In this document: in pieces, positions 8,138 to 32,731 of the stretch
How positions within the stretch are numbered: position 1 is the stretch's first letter
Layout of the letters: each line of letters begins with the position of its first letter
Source: an uncultured Lentisphaerota bacterium
Lineage (GTDB): Bacteria > Verrucomicrobiota > Lentisphaeria > Oligosphaerales > CAITYL01
Reading direction: 5' to 3'
DNA length: 35,245 nt
Assembly (NCBI GenBank): GCA_903894975.1
Contig: CAITSE010000271.1
Span: forward strand, 1-35,245
Program-made: the position numbers and the translations under genes
Notes under the pieces: generated by a model
The model's database searches: none
What the model saw: the letters and a program-made list of their open reading frames with translations, nothing else
Told to the model about the DNA's origin: nothing

Positions 8138-8750
8138 TCACCGCCGGCCGAAAATTTCCTGGAACACCCGCAGGTAGACCCGGAACTGCTCCAGCGACGT
8201 GTCCGGCGGGATGCGGTGGTCGGGCATGGGGATGAACCCGCCTTCCGCGGCCAGCGCCCGGAGCGGTTCCAGTTCGGCCCGGATCGCGTTCTCGCCCAGG
8301 GGAATGACGTGTTTGTTCACGCCGCCGATCATGCGCAACCGCTTTCCATACTGCCGCCGGATCGCCTTTCCAGGTGCCGACCTCGATGGGGAAGACAATG
8401 TCGAACCCGCTCTCCAGCCAGCAAGGCAGGAGGTCGTCCACCTTGCCGTAGAGGCTGCCGCCGAAAAAGCAGGTCATGTGCTCACGGGCATTCAGCTTGG
8501 CCGCGTGCGCCTGCCAGTCCGGTTTCCAGCGCCCGGGGTCCGCCGGATCCAGGAATTTCTTGAACCGCTCCCAGTCGGTGTCCATCTCCGGCAGTTGCGG
8601 GCCGCCGCTGGAACCCTCCTGCACCGGCGCCGTCAGCCCCTCCTCACGCCAGCGCACCTTGGTCTCCGGCCAAGTGCCGAAATAATAGACCGGCATCCGG
8701 TCAAACTCGCCGTACCTCATGACAGCATGAAAGCGTTCGCGCTCATTCAT
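8138..8750 (-). pseudogene. Decayed uroporphyrinogen-decarboxylase-like (URO-D/MtaA family) gene
   Basis: The start is normal, with GGGAG before the ATG at 8750, and reads NERERFHAVMRYGEFDRMPVY, a URO-D-like opening. The frame breaks near 8353-8363, and the typical C-terminus (RRQYGKRLRMIGG, then PMPDHRIPPDTSLEQF) continues in another frame to 8138. Restoring one copy of the 11-base unit at 8353-8363 rejoins the two parts as GDPAAIRRQYG. Even then the protein is only about 207 residues against roughly 350-400 for the family. Two more in-frame losses are evident, at DTDW/ERFK and at GSLYG/KVDDLLP, which remove much of the barrel. It follows the nucleoside hydrolase by 58 bp on the same strand. 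An assembly error cannot be excluded for the frameshift. Confidence 0.8.
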
Positions 8751-8808: not shown

Positions 8809-9717
8809 TTACGGGGCCAGGCGTTGTTTGAGGAATTCGAGGTAGGCGGGTTTGTCGGTCCAGGTCAGGGCGGCGTCCACGGGGTGGCCGGCGGGGTCTT
8901 CGCGGGTGAAGCCGTCGTTGGTGACGGTGAGGTTCAGGGTTTTCACGTTCAGCCACTGCCGGCTGAAGGCGAGGAACACCGCGACCGTATCGTAGAGGAC
9001 GGAGCTGGGTATGGACGGCGCCAGGCTGGCGACGGGGCGTTTCTCGTAGAACGAGCGCCAGATCTGCCAGCTTTCCCAGACCTCGCGGCAGAGCGGGTCT
9101 CGGCTGGCGGCCATGCGGTCGCAGAAGGCGGCGTCGAGGATGATGTCGCCGCAGGTGTCGAGCGGAGTGATGGTCTTGGGCCAGGGCGCGGAAAAGGTAC
9201 GGCGCGCGGCCTCGACGTCGCGGATGACGTTCCACTCGGCGGAACTGCCGGGCTTACCGCCGTACGCGACGGCGACGGAGCCGTGCATGCCGATGAAGCG
9301 CGCTTTCTGCGCGATCCGCGGTTCCAAGGCCAGGGCGTCGCCGATGTTGGTCAGCGGCGCGATGGCGATGACGGTCACCGGTTGCGGGCTCTGCATGATC
9401 GTTTCGACGATGGCGGCGGCGGCGTCCGGCTTCACGTTCGGATAGGATTCAAGTTTGTAGTCCGCCACCCAGGGCAGGATGGTGCGGTCGTAGGTGAAGT
9501 CGCCTTTGTCGCGGCCGATGGCCACGGGAATGTCGGTGCGTCCGGCGCTGGTGAGCAGGCGCGCGGCGATAGCGGCGCGGTAGCGGGTGTCGCCGGTGGC
9601 GGCGGTGACGAGCTTAAGGTCGAGCTCCGGGCTCTTGAGCAGCATGGCCAGCGCCCAGGAGTCGTCGATGTCGGTGCCGAGATCGGTGTCGAGGATGACG
9701 GGGATGGGAGCGGTCAT
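8809..9717 (-). CDS. Nucleoside hydrolase (IunH-like)
   Basis: This 302-residue protein of the inosine/uridine-preferring nucleoside hydrolase family cleaves the N-glycosidic bond of ribonucleosides to give base and ribose. The calcium- and ribose-binding N-terminal cluster reads VILDTDLGTDIDDSWAL (D10, D12, D16, D18, D19). SAEWNVIRDVEAA supplies the conserved Glu-Trp-Asn region, and a late Asp in LYDTVAV completes the metal site. There is no signal peptide. The variant DTDxGxDxDD motif is common in the environmental branch of the family, whose substrates are often untested. It is divergent from the AraC-type regulator, which is a plausible controller, and is followed by the URO-D-like pseudogene. 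Confidence 0.9.
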   Translation of the reverse strand: MTAPIPVILDTDLGTDIDDSWALAMLLKSPELDLKLVTAATGDTRYRAAIAARLLTSAGRTDIPVAIGRDKGDFTYDRTILPWVADYKLESYPNVKPDAAAAIVETIMQSPQPVTVIAIAPLTNIGDALALEPRIAQKARFIGMHGSVAVAYGGKPGSSAEWNVIRDVEAARRTFSAPWPKTITPLDTCGDIILDAAFCDRMAASRDPLCREVWESWQIWRSFYEKRPVASLAPSIPSSVLYDTVAVFLAFSRQWLNVKTLNLTVTNDGFTREDPAGHPVDAALTWTDKPAYLEFLKQRLAP

Positions 9718-9964: not shown

Positions 9965-10810
9965 ATGGATGAAACCATGATAAAACAGCATGAAACGCTG
10001 AAAGTGGCGGAAGCCGCCGCACCCTCCGGTTCACTTCGCGGCCGCGCCGGCTGCCGGCTGCTTTCCGCCGGGCGGTTTGCCGGGACGCACGACGTCCCTT
10101 GGCATACGCACGAGGGGGATGAGATTATTCTGGTGACCGAGGGACGGTGCGCGATGTCGGCCGGGCGCGACCGCTGGTTCGAGGGTGCCGCCGGCACCCT
10201 GTATGTCCTGCCGCGCGGCGCCGAGCAGTATCACCGGAGCCATGAATTCACGCGGGATATTTACCTGGTTTTTCAGGCGCCGGCCGGCCTGTTCGACAGG
10301 ACCGCGCGCATCCTGCAGGTGTCATTGGCCGGTTTGTGCGCCCGGCTTTTCACCGAGATCAGCGCCCTGCATCTTGGCCCGGCCGCCGGCGAAGCCGTCG
10401 CGGTGGCGGACGCGCTGCTTCTGGCCCTGCTGGAGGAACTCAACCGCGAAGAGCACCGTCTGAGTCGCACCCGTTCCCGGCATCCCGCGCTGCAGCGGGC
10501 CGTAGATTTCCTGGAAGGCTCTCTGGGCCGGACTCTGACCGTGCCGGAACTCGCCCGGCGGGCCGCCGTGTCCCCCAGCCACCTGAACGCGTTGTTCCGG
10601 AAAGAGTTTGGCTGCGCCCCGCTCAAGCTGCACATGAAATGGCGGCTGGAGCATGCCGCGCGCCTGCTCAGCGGCCGCATGCACGGCGTCAAGGAGGCCG
10701 CCGCCGCCGCGGGCTTCGCGGACCCCAACTACTTTATCCGTATGTTCCATCGCCGGTTTGGCCAACCCCCGGTCCGTTGGCAGAGGGTCTCCGACCCGTT
10801 TCCGGTTTGA
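9965..10810 (+). CDS. AraC-family transcriptional regulator
   Basis: This 281-residue regulator has an N-terminal cupin-like sensor half (about residues 25-110; HTHEGDEIILVTEGR is the typical cupin segment). Its C-terminal AraC DNA-binding domain (about 180-275) holds two helix-turn-helices: LTVPELARRAAVSPSHLNALFRKEFG, then VKEAAAAAGFADPNYFIRMFHRRFGQPPVRW. Such proteins usually sense a sugar or related metabolite. The divergent nucleoside hydrolase gene across a 247-bp gap is the most obvious target; that is inference. Two start codons are possible, 9965 and 9977, and neither has a strong Shine-Dalgarno site. Confidence 0.92.
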   Translation: MDETMIKQHETLKVAEAAAPSGSLRGRAGCRLLSAGRFAGTHDVPWHTHEGDEIILVTEGRCAMSAGRDRWFEGAAGTLYVLPRGAEQYHRSHEFTRDIYLVFQAPAGLFDRTARILQVSLAGLCARLFTEISALHLGPAAGEAVAVADALLLALLEELNREEHRLSRTRSRHPALQRAVDFLEGSLGRTLTVPELARRAAVSPSHLNALFRKEFGCAPLKLHMKWRLEHAARLLSGRMHGVKEAAAAAGFADPNYFIRMFHRRFGQPPVRWQRVSDPFPV

Positions 10811-10819
10811 ACGGTGCGG

Positions 10820-10937
10820 CTCCCACTGGGAGAGGGGGCGTCCCGCCCCCTTTCTGGGAAAGTGGGCATCTTGCCCGCTAACCCGGGGGGCGGGTGTCCA
10901 CACCCGGCAACACCGGCCGGCGGGCTTCCAGCCTGCC
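10820..10937. repeat. Array of short hairpins at a 28-29-bp pitch
   Basis: Four hairpins follow each other: 10834-10850, 10862-10878, 10891-10906 and 10919-10937. Their starts are 28, 29 and 28 bp apart. Each is a 7-8-bp stem around a tiny loop (TCC, TCT, CC, TCC). The stem sequences differ completely, yet each arm matches its partner (one G-T and one C-T exception). A smaller hairpin, CTCCC-ACT-GGGAG, precedes them at 10820-10832. The array fills the gap between the convergent ends of the araC-type and M32 peptidase genes. Confidence 0.7.
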
Positions 10938-10959
10938 GAATCCGCTGGAATTTGAAAGG

Positions 10960-12480
10960 TTAAAAACGATAGAGCGGTTGGAATTTTTCCTTTAAGTAGG
11001 CCAGGAACGGTTCGCTGCTCAGCTCCCGTCCCGTCACCTTCCGGCAGAGGTCGCCGGCGCGGTAAGATTGACCGTGCTCATGGATGGTTTTGTTCAGCCA
11101 ATTCTTCAACGGCGCGAAGTCGCCCTGTTCAAAGCGGGAATCTAACTCGCCCAGGTCCCGGCTGGCGGCGGCGAAAAACTGTGCGGAATAAAGGTTGCCG
11201 AGGGTGTAGGTGGGGAAATACCCGAAGCTGCCGTGGCTCCAGTGCACGTCCTGCAGGCAGCCCATGGCGTTGTCGGGCGGAGTGACGCCCAGGTATTTCC
11301 GCACGGCCTCATTCCAGGCGGCGGGAACGTCGGCGGCCTTTAAGTCCCCGGATATGAGGGAGGTTTCGATATCAAAGCGGAAGGCGATGTGGAGGTTGTA
11401 CGTCACTTCGTCCGATTCGGTGCGGATCAGGGACGGCGCCGAGTGGTTGATGGTGAAATGGAAAGTCTCCAGGGAAATATCGTCGAACGTGCCAGGGAAG
11501 GCCTTTTGCAGTTCGGGGAAGAAGTGCGTCCAGAACGGCAGGCTGCGGCCCACCAGGTTTTCCCAGAGGCGCGATTGAGATTCGTGGATGCCCAGGGATA
11601 CCGCCGCCGCCCGGGGCGTGCCGTAGCGGCCGTCGCCGCCGGGCAGTCCCTGATCATAGATTCCGTGGCCGGCTTCGTGCAGGGTGCTGAAAAAGGAGTT
11701 TTCGAAATTGGCTTCCTCGAACCGGGTGGTGATACGGGTGTCGGCAGGCCCCAGGCCGGTCGTGAACGGGTGGGCGGAAACGTCGATGCGGCCCCGGTCA
11801 AAATCGAAGCCGATGGCGTTGGCCAGCTTGCGGCAGAACGCCTGCTGAGCGGGAATGGCGCAGGGGCGTTTCAGGATCGCAAGATCAGGCTGGCGTTTGG
11901 CCGTCGTGATCCTGGTCACCATTTCCGAAAGCCGTTGCTTCAAAGGCGGAAAAAGGCGGTTCAACTGCGCGGTGGTGAGCCCCGGTTCATAGTCCTCCAG
12001 AAGCGCGTCGTAGGGGTGTTCACGGTAGCCGTAACATTCGGCGGTCTGCCGGGTCAGGGCGACGATCTTTTCCAACCAGGGTTGGAACCGGGCGAAGTTG
12101 TTTTCCCGGCGGGCCGCCACCCACTCCACCTGGGCGTTGTCGGTGACGCGAGCCAGTTCCTCCACCAGTTTTTGCGGCAGTTTCCGGGCCCGGTCGTAGG
12201 AACGGCGCCATTCCCGCACGTTCACCGCGGCGTCGCCCAGGGGTTCGGCGGCGAAGGCAGGGGAGGCTTCGGCCTGTGCGAGCCATTCTCCGACCGTGGG
12301 ATCGGTAAATTTTTGGTGGATCATTCCCGCCAGCAGCGAACTCTGTTCGGCCCGGTAGGCCGCGTTGGCGGCGGGCATGTAGACCTCCCGGTCCCAGCCC
12401 AGGATCCCGGCCGTACTGCCCAGCAGCGTGATCTCCTGCATCCGGCGGAATAATTCGTCGTAGGCTTGTTCAGGGGTCAT
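10960..12480 (-). CDS. M32 family metallocarboxypeptidase (thermostable carboxypeptidase 1 type)
   Basis: This 506-residue protein is full length for the M32 family (Taq/Pfu carboxypeptidases), cytoplasmic zinc enzymes that remove C-terminal residues from peptides. The zinc site is HEAGH at H268-H272 in TLHEAGHGIYDQGLP. The second family motif, HESQSRLWEN, follows about 30 residues later. HPFTTGLGPADTRITTRF just before the zinc site is also characteristic. There is no signal peptide. GAGGA lies 8 nt before the start. It stands alone, convergent with the araC-type gene and with a repeat-rich gap behind its start. General peptide turnover is its likely role. Confidence 0.95.
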   Translation of the reverse strand: MTPEQAYDELFRRMQEITLLGSTAGILGWDREVYMPAANAAYRAEQSSLLAGMIHQKFTDPTVGEWLAQAEASPAFAAEPLGDAAVNVREWRRSYDRARKLPQKLVEELARVTDNAQVEWVAARRENNFARFQPWLEKIVALTRQTAECYGYREHPYDALLEDYEPGLTTAQLNRLFPPLKQRLSEMVTRITTAKRQPDLAILKRPCAIPAQQAFCRKLANAIGFDFDRGRIDVSAHPFTTGLGPADTRITTRFEEANFENSFFSTLHEAGHGIYDQGLPGGDGRYGTPRAAAVSLGIHESQSRLWENLVGRSLPFWTHFFPELQKAFPGTFDDISLETFHFTINHSAPSLIRTESDEVTYNLHIAFRFDIETSLISGDLKAADVPAAWNEAVRKYLGVTPPDNAMGCLQDVHWSHGSFGYFPTYTLGNLYSAQFFAAASRDLGELDSRFEQGDFAPLKNWLNKTIHEHGQSYRAGDLCRKVTGRELSSEPFLAYLKEKFQPLYRF

Positions 12481-12821
12481 GGGGCATCCTCAAATTCGGC
12501 AATTGGTTTATTTCCATTGGGGTCAATCCGCCGACCCTCTGGATCTCTTACGTTTTCGATTGATCGGAGCGCTGAAGGCGCGGTTCCATAATAGCCTGGG
12601 GCAACGCCCCAGGTTGAAGTGAAAATGAGACCGGAGCCCTGTAGGGGCGAACCATTTCGGGTTGCGTGAGCATGTTGTCGAATTTCTATGGGGCGCCCCT
12701 TCAGGGCTCAACCGGTGTGGTGACGGAAACCTGGGGCGACGCTACGCTCTGCCCCAGGCTGTTATGGTGCGCCCCGTTGGGGCTGAAAACGGGTGCACAT
12801 GTGCCTTTGGGATGGGGGACA
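12481..12821. repeat. 341-bp gap filled with REP-like hairpins of two alternating kinds
   Basis: Kind 1 has CCTGGGGC and GCCCCAGG arms: 12595-12613 with a 3-nt loop, and 12730-12758 with a 13-nt loop. Kind 2 has a GCCC(C)-type stem around 2-4 nt: about 12636-12648, about 12694-12706 and 12771-12783. The order is 1, 2, 2, 1, 2. A GCGC-TGAA-GGCGC hairpin lies near 12570. No convincing protein is encoded. These look like dispersed palindromic repeats. Confidence 0.6.
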
Positions 12822-30502: not shown

Positions 30503-30825
30503 ACGGAAGTTGAACAGAAGGCGCAAAGACGCGAAGAGGGCGGATTTGTTATGGGAAAACGGAGTGTTCACCACGAAGTCACGAAGTTGGATCAAAGCTC
30601 TTTGCTGTACCGATGCGCCGCGTCCTTGGAGTGCTGGGGCTTGACCCAGCTTTCCCCGGCGGCGGAGCCGCCACTCCCAAGCGTGGTTGGCTCCCGCGCC
30701 GGGGGCGTAAGGTGGATCATCAGGCAGGAGGCCGGTTCCACCGGCGGGAAAAAGCGGCGTCAAGCCGCCGCCACTCCAAAGCGGCTCTGCCGCGGTACGG
30801 GCCGGTTACGAATCGCTGAGGCTGA
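30503..30825. repeat. pstC-pstA gap: two single-arm words and a 184-bp composite element (copy A)
   Basis: Bases about 30510-30538 hold an AACAGAAGGCGCAAAG word like that at 2605. Bases 30571-30587 hold a CCACGAAGT/CACGAAGT word. The composite element 30612-30795 begins with CTTGGAGTG and ends with CCACTCCAAAG in inverted order. Inside are several GGCGG/CCGCC hairpins. It is closely related to 32519-32706. No gene is seen. Confidence 0.65.
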
Positions 30826-32427
30826 ATGAAACCGTCAACCAACATCAAATCTCCCGGGTTCTGGCGGTTGGGCGAGCCGTTCGTCTGGCTGACGGGCGCG
30901 GCCATGGCGCTGGTGCTGATCCTGGCCGGCGGCATGCTCGTGGTGGTGGCGGGGAACGGTTTGGGCGTGTTCTGGCCTGCCCGGCTCGAACAGTTTGAGA
31001 TGAAGGACAAAACGGTTCTGCTTGGCGCCGTGACCCAGCGCAGTGCCGTCCGCAACGGCGTCGCCCACTCCCGGCTCCAGGTGAAGGTCGGCAACCGCGA
31101 CCTCTCCGGCGCCGACTTCCGCTGGATCGACGCGGACGCCGTGGCCCGCACTTCCGCTCCGCCGGACGCCCTGCTCGTGGAACGGCGCGAGTTCGGCGAT
31201 TTCCACGGCTTCCTGGTCCGCTCCGCCACGGCCGGCGGTGTCGATGGACTCCGTGCCGACTGGCTCAGGGTCCGGGCGGAGTTTGCGGGCGTCGCGGAAC
31301 TGGGGAAGGCCGTGTCCAAGATCAACGACCGCATGGAAGGCATCCGCCGCGACTTGCTACGCCTGCGTTACCGGAATGCCCCCGAGTCCGGCTCCGCCAT
31401 CCGCGGCTGCCTGGCGCGCCAGGCGGAACTCAAGGTCGAATTCGACCGGCTGGTTGCCGGGCAGACCCGGAGCCTGGAAGGACTGCGGCGGCACACGGCC
31501 ACGTTCCGGGATGCCGCCGGCCGCGAGAAGGAAATCCCGCTGACCGACATCGTCCGCTTCTGCCAACCCAATATCCTGGGGGTCGGCGGGAAAGCCGGAT
31601 GGTATCTGGAAAAAGTGTGGGAACTCTTTTTCGCCGAACCGCGCGAGGCCAACACCGAAGGCGGCCTCTTCCCGGCGATCATGGGGACCGTGATGATGGT
31701 TTTTCTGATGAGCCTGTTCAGTTTCCCCCTGGGCGTGGTCACCGCCGTCTACCTGCGGGAGTATGCCAGAGACGGCTGGTTGGTTCGCGTTGTGCGCATC
31801 GCGGTCAACAACCTGGCCGGCATTCCTTCCATCGTCTACGGCATCTTCGGGCTCGGGTTCTTCATCTACGGCGTCGGTTCAGGGTTGGACCGGCTGTTTT
31901 TCCCCGAGCGACTGCCGACGCCCACTTTCGGCACCGGCGGCATTCTTTGGGCGAGCCTGACCTTGGCGTTGCTGACTGTACCCGTGGTGATCGTGGCCAC
32001 GGAGGAGGCGCTGGGCGCCATTCCCGCGGGAGTCCGGCACGCGTCCCTGGCCCTGGGCGCGACCAAGCTCCAGACCCTGCTCCGGGTCCTGTTGCCGATG
32101 GCGTCGCCGGGGATCATGACCGGCTTCATCCTGGCCATGGCCCGCGCGGCGGGCGAGGTCGCTCCGCTCATGATCACCGGCGTGGTCAAGCTCGCGCCGG
32201 CCATGCCGTTGGACGGGAACTTCCCGTTCTTCCACGTCGATCGCAAGTTTATGCATCTCGGCTTCCACATCTACGACATCGGCTTTCAGTCACCCAACGT
32301 CGAGGCGGCCAAGCCCATGGTCTATGTCACGACCCTGCTGCTCCTGTTCATCGTCCTGCTCATGAGCAGCAGCGCCATTCTCCTCCGCAACCGCATGAAA
32401 AAACGCTACACCCTCGGTTCGTTCTAG
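30826..32427 (+). CDS. pstA: Phosphate ABC transporter permease, long PstA with periplasmic coiled-coil insertion
   Basis: This 533-residue partner of PstC has one N-terminal membrane segment (about 18-42), then about 230 periplasmic residues. These include a likely coiled coil (LGKAVSKINDRMEGIRRDLLRL to LEGLRRHTATF, about 160-230). The transport domain begins at about 280 (GTVMMVFLMSLFSFPLGVVTAVYLREY). The PstB-docking loop EALGAIPAGVRHASLALGATKLQTLLRVLLPMASPG lies at about 393-428. Ordinary PstA has about 290 residues, so the insertion matches the long PstC. It is separated from pstC by 323 bp of repeats without its own visible Pho box, so it probably depends on read-through. Confidence 0.93.
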   Translation: MKPSTNIKSPGFWRLGEPFVWLTGAAMALVLILAGGMLVVVAGNGLGVFWPARLEQFEMKDKTVLLGAVTQRSAVRNGVAHSRLQVKVGNRDLSGADFRWIDADAVARTSAPPDALLVERREFGDFHGFLVRSATAGGVDGLRADWLRVRAEFAGVAELGKAVSKINDRMEGIRRDLLRLRYRNAPESGSAIRGCLARQAELKVEFDRLVAGQTRSLEGLRRHTATFRDAAGREKEIPLTDIVRFCQPNILGVGGKAGWYLEKVWELFFAEPREANTEGGLFPAIMGTVMMVFLMSLFSFPLGVVTAVYLREYARDGWLVRVVRIAVNNLAGIPSIVYGIFGLGFFIYGVGSGLDRLFFPERLPTPTFGTGGILWASLTLALLTVPVVIVATEEALGAIPAGVRHASLALGATKLQTLLRVLLPMASPGIMTGFILAMARAAGEVAPLMITGVVKLAPAMPLDGNFPFFHVDRKFMHLGFHIYDIGFQSPNVEAAKPMVYVTTLLLLFIVLLMSSSAILLRNRMKKRYTLGSF

Positions 32428-32731
32428 CCAGATGATTCACCACGAAGTCACGAAGTCCGAGCGAAGGAAATTCTCCCATGAATAGATCACGTTCGGTTGT
32501 AATGAGTCCTCTTGCACGGATGCGGAGCATCTTTGGAGTGCGGTGGCTCGACACCGCTTTCCCCGGCGGCGCAGCCGCCTCTCCCACGCATGGCCAACTC
32601 CCGTACCTGGGCCGGAAGAGGGCGGAGCCATTACGCGGGAGGCCGGTTTCACCGGCGGGAAAAAGCGGCGTCAAGCCGCCGCACTCCAAAGCGGCGAGGA
32701 CGCCGCAATTACTGCAGGGAATCCACACGCC
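32428..32731. repeat. pstA-pstB gap: single-arm word and a 188-bp composite element (copy B)
   Basis: Bases 32440-32456 hold the same CCACGAAGT/CACGAAGT word as the previous gap. The element 32519-32706 has 13-bp perfect terminal inverted repeats, 32531-32543 and 32679-32691. It shares with copy A a CTTTCCCCGGCGGCG block and a long block running through CCGGCGGG, AAAAAGCGGCG and TCAAGCCGCCG, while the middle differs. No gene or Pho box is seen. Confidence 0.65.

Follow-up and report, generated by a model that had tools for sequence, protein, structure and literature searches.

The stretch of DNA analysed here, 35,245 nucleotides from an uncultured Lentisphaerota bacterium and referred to throughout as the window, contains four short hairpins arranged in tandem between two genes that converge on them. 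The question raised by this locus is whether the array is a device particular to the gap in which it sits or a local example of something more widespread.

Structure of the hairpin array

The stems of the array start at 10833, 10861, 10890/10891 and 10918 (Table 1), a spacing of 28, 29 and 28 that is the pitch reported in an initial, sequence-only reading of the locus. The TCC-like loops described in that reading are present also, as is the location between convergent genes, an AraC-type ORF ending at 10810 on the + strand and an M32 ORF ending at 10960 on the − strand. The description is accurate, subject to some qualifications. The stems have 8, 8, 6 and 9 pairs; the third begins at 10891, one base further in than was claimed; and the stems, which had been held to differ completely, are partly related, with a similarity of 77% (26 nt) between hairpins 1 and 2 and of 70% (27 nt) between the segments that contain hairpins 3 and 4. 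The pitch, moreover, is constant in the window but not across 25 aligned copies of the array (see below), in which the loop-to-loop distances of the first, second and third steps range over 25–29, 25–34 and 29–31, respectively.

Table 1. Positions in the window of the hairpin array and of adjoining features
Feature	Position	Strand	Remarks
AraC-type regulator ORF, 281 aa, Cupin_2 + HTH_18	9965..10810	+	End is repeat sequence
Repeat module GAGGGTCTCCGACCC-GTTTCC, hairpin GGGTC-TCC-GACCC	10783..10805	+	3' end of AraC-type ORF
CT + foot GGGAG, 5' of hairpin 1	10826..10832	+	Sequence
Hairpin 1	10833..10851	+	8 pairs, loop TCC; helix 1 cells 85.7% paired
CT + foot GGGAA, 5' of hairpin 2	10854..10860	+	Sequence
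Hairpin 2	10861..10879	+	8 pairs (one G-T), loop TCT; cells 89.4% paired
Hairpin 3	10891..10906	+	6 pairs, loop TCCA; invariant in 25 copies
Hairpin 4	10918..10938	+	9 pairs (one G-T), loop TCC; GGG[AG] foot in 0/25 copies
M32 carboxypeptidase ORF, convergent neighbour	10960..12480	−	PF02074, 591.4 bits

Hairpins are common in this DNA, a loose rule finding 205 of them in the window, and one explanation is that the array consists of chance hairpins in GC-rich sequence. However, with a chain defined as hairpins spaced 26–31 nt, the array is the only four-hairpin chain of the 35-kb window, and such a chain appeared in none of 1000 dinucleotide-preserving shuffles of 10811–10959 (chains of three appeared in one and of two in 24). 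The explanation is refuted by the homologous copies described next, which keep the pairing, and its probability is considered negligible.

Copies of the array and conservation of pairing

A BLAST search with positions 10700–11050 returned 44 matches in the window's own genome (G000; 4,458,213 bases in 376 contigs). A sequence profile built from 11 full copies found 15 loci scoring >25 bits in 529,574 sampled bases of the same genome (60 evenly chosen contigs, with the first 20 kb of each at most), which extrapolates to ∼126 loci genome-wide. The genome search for further arrays that the sequence-only reading had proposed has therefore found others. When the copies are read side by side, the array is common to them and an upstream part to some, and the flanks further out look unrelated; several copies sit at contig ends. 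The 5' ends of 50 copies are nested, with 15 full, nine starting from near unit 2, 18 from near unit 3 and eight elsewhere, a pattern that could result from loss of whole units but is given no weight, as local alignments tend to stop in variable linkers.

Outside this genome, the array was absent from all 46 relatives searched. When GTDB contigs, from which the window's own record was possibly left out, were scanned with the core of hairpin 3, one match was obtained, on a Myxococcales MAG contig; it lies in a coding stretch and was judged by eye to be due to chance. The neighbouring M32 gene was found in nine of 59 genomes, the window's own included, with one weak partial match at 1.1e-4 among the nine; identity in the other genomes, none of which is from the same family, is 41–48%, and no orthologous empty site for the window copy was obtained.

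Pairing was assessed in 25 of the ∼50 distinct copies, picked by sequence and not by pairing. Standard pairs occupy 93.2% of 679 cells, compared with 37–49% when the partners are slid by 1–3 columns. Changes on both sides of a pair were found in 20 cells against a mean of 8.5 (SD 1.9) in shuffles, with none of 500 shuffles reaching 20, and six pairs contain a double change against 3.7 in shuffles (11/500), these shuffle counts not being probabilities because the copies are related to one another. Further pair types were within the shuffle range (69/500). Covariation is clearest at two loop-closing pairs, those of hairpin 4 (A-T in 14 copies, T-A in 11) and of hairpin 1 (A-T in seven, G-C in four, other in two); hairpin 3 is invariant in the 25 copies and hence uninformative in this respect. 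The contention of the sequence-only reading that pairing is conserved is upheld by these figures, the copies pairing well rather than poorly. The array is primarily a dispersed transposon-type repeat, and not a device particular to this gap, for which the sequence-only reading had named a transcription roadblock, an RNA stability element or a protein array as possibilities.

Location of copies relative to genes

The position of the copies, which are mostly BLAST-derived, relative to genes called with a home-made gene finder was then considered. Forty-five of 50 distinct copies lie outside called genes, and three of the five inside belong to the nspC cassette described below. The 34 copies with both neighbours called occupy 15 convergent, five divergent and 14 tandem gaps, those in tandem gaps being sense relative to the neighbours in 10 cases and antisense in four, and eight copies start 0–6 nt 3' of the upstream stop. 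REPs are described in PMC3733652 as lying between unidirectional and convergent genes, behind coding regions and also within genes; the placement of the array agrees with this, and fits promoter-avoiding selection or a role at the RNA level alike. As a separate observation, an array was seen within a pglX-like ORF on contig C122 (L038), which matches Pfam Eco57I and DUF7008 and has no PDB match.

If the array has a role at the RNA level, its hairpins would form a chain at the 3' end of messages that impedes exonucleases or ribosomes and that, irrespective of how it arose, has been maintained by selection in many such positions. The excess of convergent over divergent gaps, the sense orientation in tandem gaps and the eight copies close behind stop codons speak for such an element, as does the folding of the + strand, which is better than that of shuffles (z of −3.24, compared with −1.97 for the − strand). 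In the minimum-energy structure predicted for the + strand RNA folded alone, hairpins 2 and 4 are retained and hairpins 1 and 3 give way to long-range pairing. However, the convergent-over-divergent bias would arise also if insertions close to promoters were selected against, the sense/antisense split is weak, and the counts derive from copies mostly found by BLAST and genes from a home-made finder. Furthermore, no site resembling an intrinsic terminator (a T run after a GC hairpin) was found within 10700–11060, and no Rfam 15 family matched anywhere in the window at the gathering score, so that both a terminator and a known RNA family were rejected. An RNA-level element is regarded as unlikely, although a secondary RNA effect may exist, given the bias to gene 3' ends.

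A second repeat family at the end of the AraC-type gene

Repeat sequence begins at ∼10783, upstream of the array and within the AraC-type ORF. It makes up the final eight codons of this ORF together with its stop codon, and the HTH_18 match ends at residue 274 of 281. The module concerned (GGGTC-TYC-GACCC followed by GTTTCC) occurs at 58 places in the window's own genome with ≤1 mismatch, compared with one for a reversed control. The array of the window stands behind a fragment of this second repeat family, the end of the AraC-type gene being made up of the two. Many of the 36 module neighbourhoods read have an extra hairpin before the module and a long hairpin behind it. Four composites (L130, L131, L136 and L147), each of ∼250 nt with stems that are variable but self-complementary, end, by eye, in an inverted version of their own beginning.

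These inverted ends, and the occurrence of the module at 58 places, speak for a MITE of another transposon, with the array as its right half and the 10783 module as its left part, moved by a transposase other than a RAYT (REP-associated tyrosine transposase). Against this, there are arrays without the module (e.g. L014, L016, L020 and L024) and modules without the array (e.g. L113, L123 and L140), and the surroundings of the RAYT on contig C11 described below showed the array but no module. This origin is considered improbable.

A RAYT flanked by arrays inside nspC

Thirteen Y1_Tnp matches were found in the window's own genome. The one on contig C11 (8570–8803, − strand) is a RAYT with arrays on both sides (8357–8413 and 8439–8494 on the + strand, 9143–9255 on the − strand), the feet of which point outward. 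This is the only one of the 13 genes at which arrays were seen: the 10 other loci that were read have different hairpins, and the array was rejected as an end of the genome's other Y1_Tnp genes. The C11 RAYT scores 70.1 bits against NCBIfam NF047646, for which the cut-off is 80 bits, a value exceeded by five of eight other RAYT frames.

The C11 RAYT lies in a 699-codon single open frame (L028:7577–9673) that encodes nspC on both sides of it. Positions 2–114 of TIGR01047 are matched at C11:9248–9586 and positions 114–380 at C11:7580–8365, with ∼882 bp between the two parts (a cassette of roughly 0.9 kb). PDB 9eaf_A is similarly matched by the nspC halves as 4–119 and 124–376, and TIGR01047 has no further match above cut-off in this genome. 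Since no profile position of nspC has been lost, the RAYT and arrays within it are, as judged from these alignments, a strong trace of the move of a cassette.

Other repeats were noted in the window. A hairpin at 12595–12613, CCTGGGGC-aac-GCCCCAGG, has a stem matching hairpins beside Y1_Tnp genes on contigs C292 and C38 (L052 and L053), and is probably a second REP family of the genome. Pairs of repeats at 30567–30771 and 32436–32682, 77–93% alike, flank an ORF at 30826–32427; the repeats contain TTCACCACGAAGTCACGAAG and a TTCC-loop hairpin (GCCGGT-TCC-ACCGGC) that recurs in the 60-contig sample.

Distribution of the unit in the phylum

Among 387 genomes of the phylum, the pattern TGGGANNNNGGGCNTCNNGCCC (foot TGGGA, GC stem, TC-loop) is present in 34, the window's own included, with at least two units in 21 and a maximum of 210; a reversed control gave eight matches in seven genomes. 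Y1_Tnp was searched for in the 13 other genomes having at least six units and was matched in 12, with 77 matches in total, 75 loci being examined. Strict units are present at seven of these 75 RAYT loci, in five genomes, the 17 units observed comparing with 1.17 expected from genome density (Poisson P 0.0002), and a looser rule adds G313:C41 and G132:C18. Six of the 12 genomes have no tagged unit near a RAYT, including that with 210 units (G238); G313 has one under the looser rule only, and no Y1_Tnp was matched in G339, which contains 19 units. Within 1 kb of nine RAYTs, 17 of 25 tagged units point outward, a count for which HUH positions were estimated in three of the RAYTs and to which C11 contributed none, its units being looser. 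The contig with two RAYTs (G376:C83) has units with three stem types, some of them 27 nt apart. That the GGGA foot belongs to a single RAYT clade was rejected, there being at least three changes on a tree of 21 proteins.

Two further features of these loci were observed. The RAYT proteins of L212, L223 and L230 have short inserts between the HuH and Y motifs (e.g. AGETPALP or AGEPPALP), and in L212 hairpin units lie within the frame of the insert. At L229 (G148:C106), near a RAYT, hairpins of the form GCGGCG-TCC-CGCCGC follow GGTAGGGC; they have a GTAG foot and a loop as in GGGA units, and are a possible link between the two feet.

Comparison with known REP systems

GGG[AG] is found ≤8 nt before the stem in 10/13, 24/25, 16/25 and 0/25 copies of hairpins 1 to 4, respectively, and the array is thus footed only in part; it may be that hairpins 3 and 4 function together as a pair. 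GT[AG]G ≤6 nt 5' of the stem was found in 0/13, 1/25, 0/25 and 0/25 copies, and in 1/88 on the other strand. In nine of 25 copies, GTRG...CYAC occurs inside the stem of hairpin 2, and of that hairpin alone, an arrangement open to interpretation as a double foot. A possible cut site was considered also: C precedes TGGGA in 42 of 51 strict units at the loci of other genomes. Together with an AG-terminated foot, this would agree with the cleavage at CT that has been reported for the TnpA-REP of E. coli (PMC8266576). The idea was dropped because the base after GGGA does not track the dinucleotide (CT is found with GGGAC in 6/7 and with GGGAA in 5/7) and CT precedes GGGA in only 8/27 in the window's own genome.

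In the broad sense of the term, the arrays have features of REPs: short hairpins in many dispersed copies, mostly outside genes (45/50), and associated with a RAYT at C11 and at 7/75 loci, yet at none in 6/12 genomes. They lack the GT[AG]G foot of GTAG REPs, and the inverted layout of REPINs or BIMEs was not seen, there being no inverted neighbour ≤300 nt away, and one same-strand pair, among array hits >25 bits. By description, they resemble the REPs and REPtrons of TnpA-REP subclass 2.4 (Quentin et al. 2018, PMC6006769), which that paper equates with the group 4 RAYTs of Bertels et al. (2017), in being GC-rich, short, multicopy hairpins beside a HUH/Y1 transposase, and differ from them in the foot, GGGA and not GT[AG]G, and in the head-to-tail tandem array. 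As in the GTAG-tagged REPs described by di Nocera et al. (2013, PMC3733652), stems are of 6–9 bp with loops of 2–3 nt, alternative complementary stem letters occur inside one family, and copies lie in unidirectional or convergent gaps, behind coding regions or inserted within genes; the tag of the array is different. Palindromic repeats in frame within coding genes are known in the Rickettsia palindromic elements, as told in PMC3733652, whereas here a transposase gene together with hairpins lies in frame, inside nspC and a brxX/pglX-type gene. The foot and the layout set the array apart from the REPs described, although bacterial repeats of this kind are known.

The array is therefore probably a head-to-tail REP-type cluster, one of ∼100 dispersed copies, spread now or formerly by a RAYT. 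This is indicated by the dispersal and kept pairing of the copies, the arrays that flank the C11 RAYT, the cassette in frame inside nspC and the excess of units near RAYTs of related genomes. A RAYT, as a HUH/Y1 single-strand transposase, would bind a folded, short-footed hairpin, by analogy with other REPs for which recognition of foot and hairpin is reported (PMC8266576, PMC6006769). As the substrate is a single strand in folded form, stem pairing would be kept and the stem letters may change together. The RAYT would cut and join the array as a single strand and would move lone arrays, and the window copy may have arrived by such a move. Several observations count against a REP-type cluster spread by a RAYT: hairpin 4 is footless and hairpin 3 has its foot in 16/25 copies, arrays are present at only 1/13 of the genome's Y1_Tnp genes, half of the 12 genomes have no unit near a RAYT and G339 has no Y1_Tnp match, the unit-bearing RAYTs do not form a single clade, outward orientation stands at 17/25, the C11 RAYT falls below the model cut-off, and no empty site was obtained for the window copy.

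RAYT cassettes in frame inside other genes

The in-frame arrangement at nspC has counterparts elsewhere. In G061:C318 (L244:1–3054), a RAYT is in one open frame with brxX/pglX on both sides (PDB 8c45_A, 167–269 and 305–599), and in G376:C83 (L214:5105–8998) a RAYT frame has a DrmD-like helicase before it, below the model cut-off, and NOV_C after it. Frames joining a RAYT to a host domain on one side were found in G376 (DUF1156), G184 (PFL-like), G132:C18 (alanyl-tRNA synthetase), G132:C1 (creatininase) and G000:C94 (MgsA_C), the contig ending on the other side in two of the five. The two-sided brxX/pglX case suggests that the nspC cassette is not a single accident. A search at the level of titles and the opening of abstracts, with most subscription papers outside its scope, turned up no account of a RAYT gene lying in frame within another gene.

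It is possible, and is put forward tentatively, that a GGGA-foot RAYT–REP class is mobile in two forms, small head-to-tail arrays and whole RAYT cassettes, and that the cassettes may persist by landing in frame inside conserved genes, where the arrays would be translated as peptide linkers and the transposase would be an internal segment of the host protein. The hosts would be nspC, brxX/pglX in G061 and, probably, the DrmD-like helicase in G376. Since reported TnpA-REP enzymes vary in their dependence on GTAG (PMC8266576), the GGGA foot provides a test of substrate choice by enzymes of this family.
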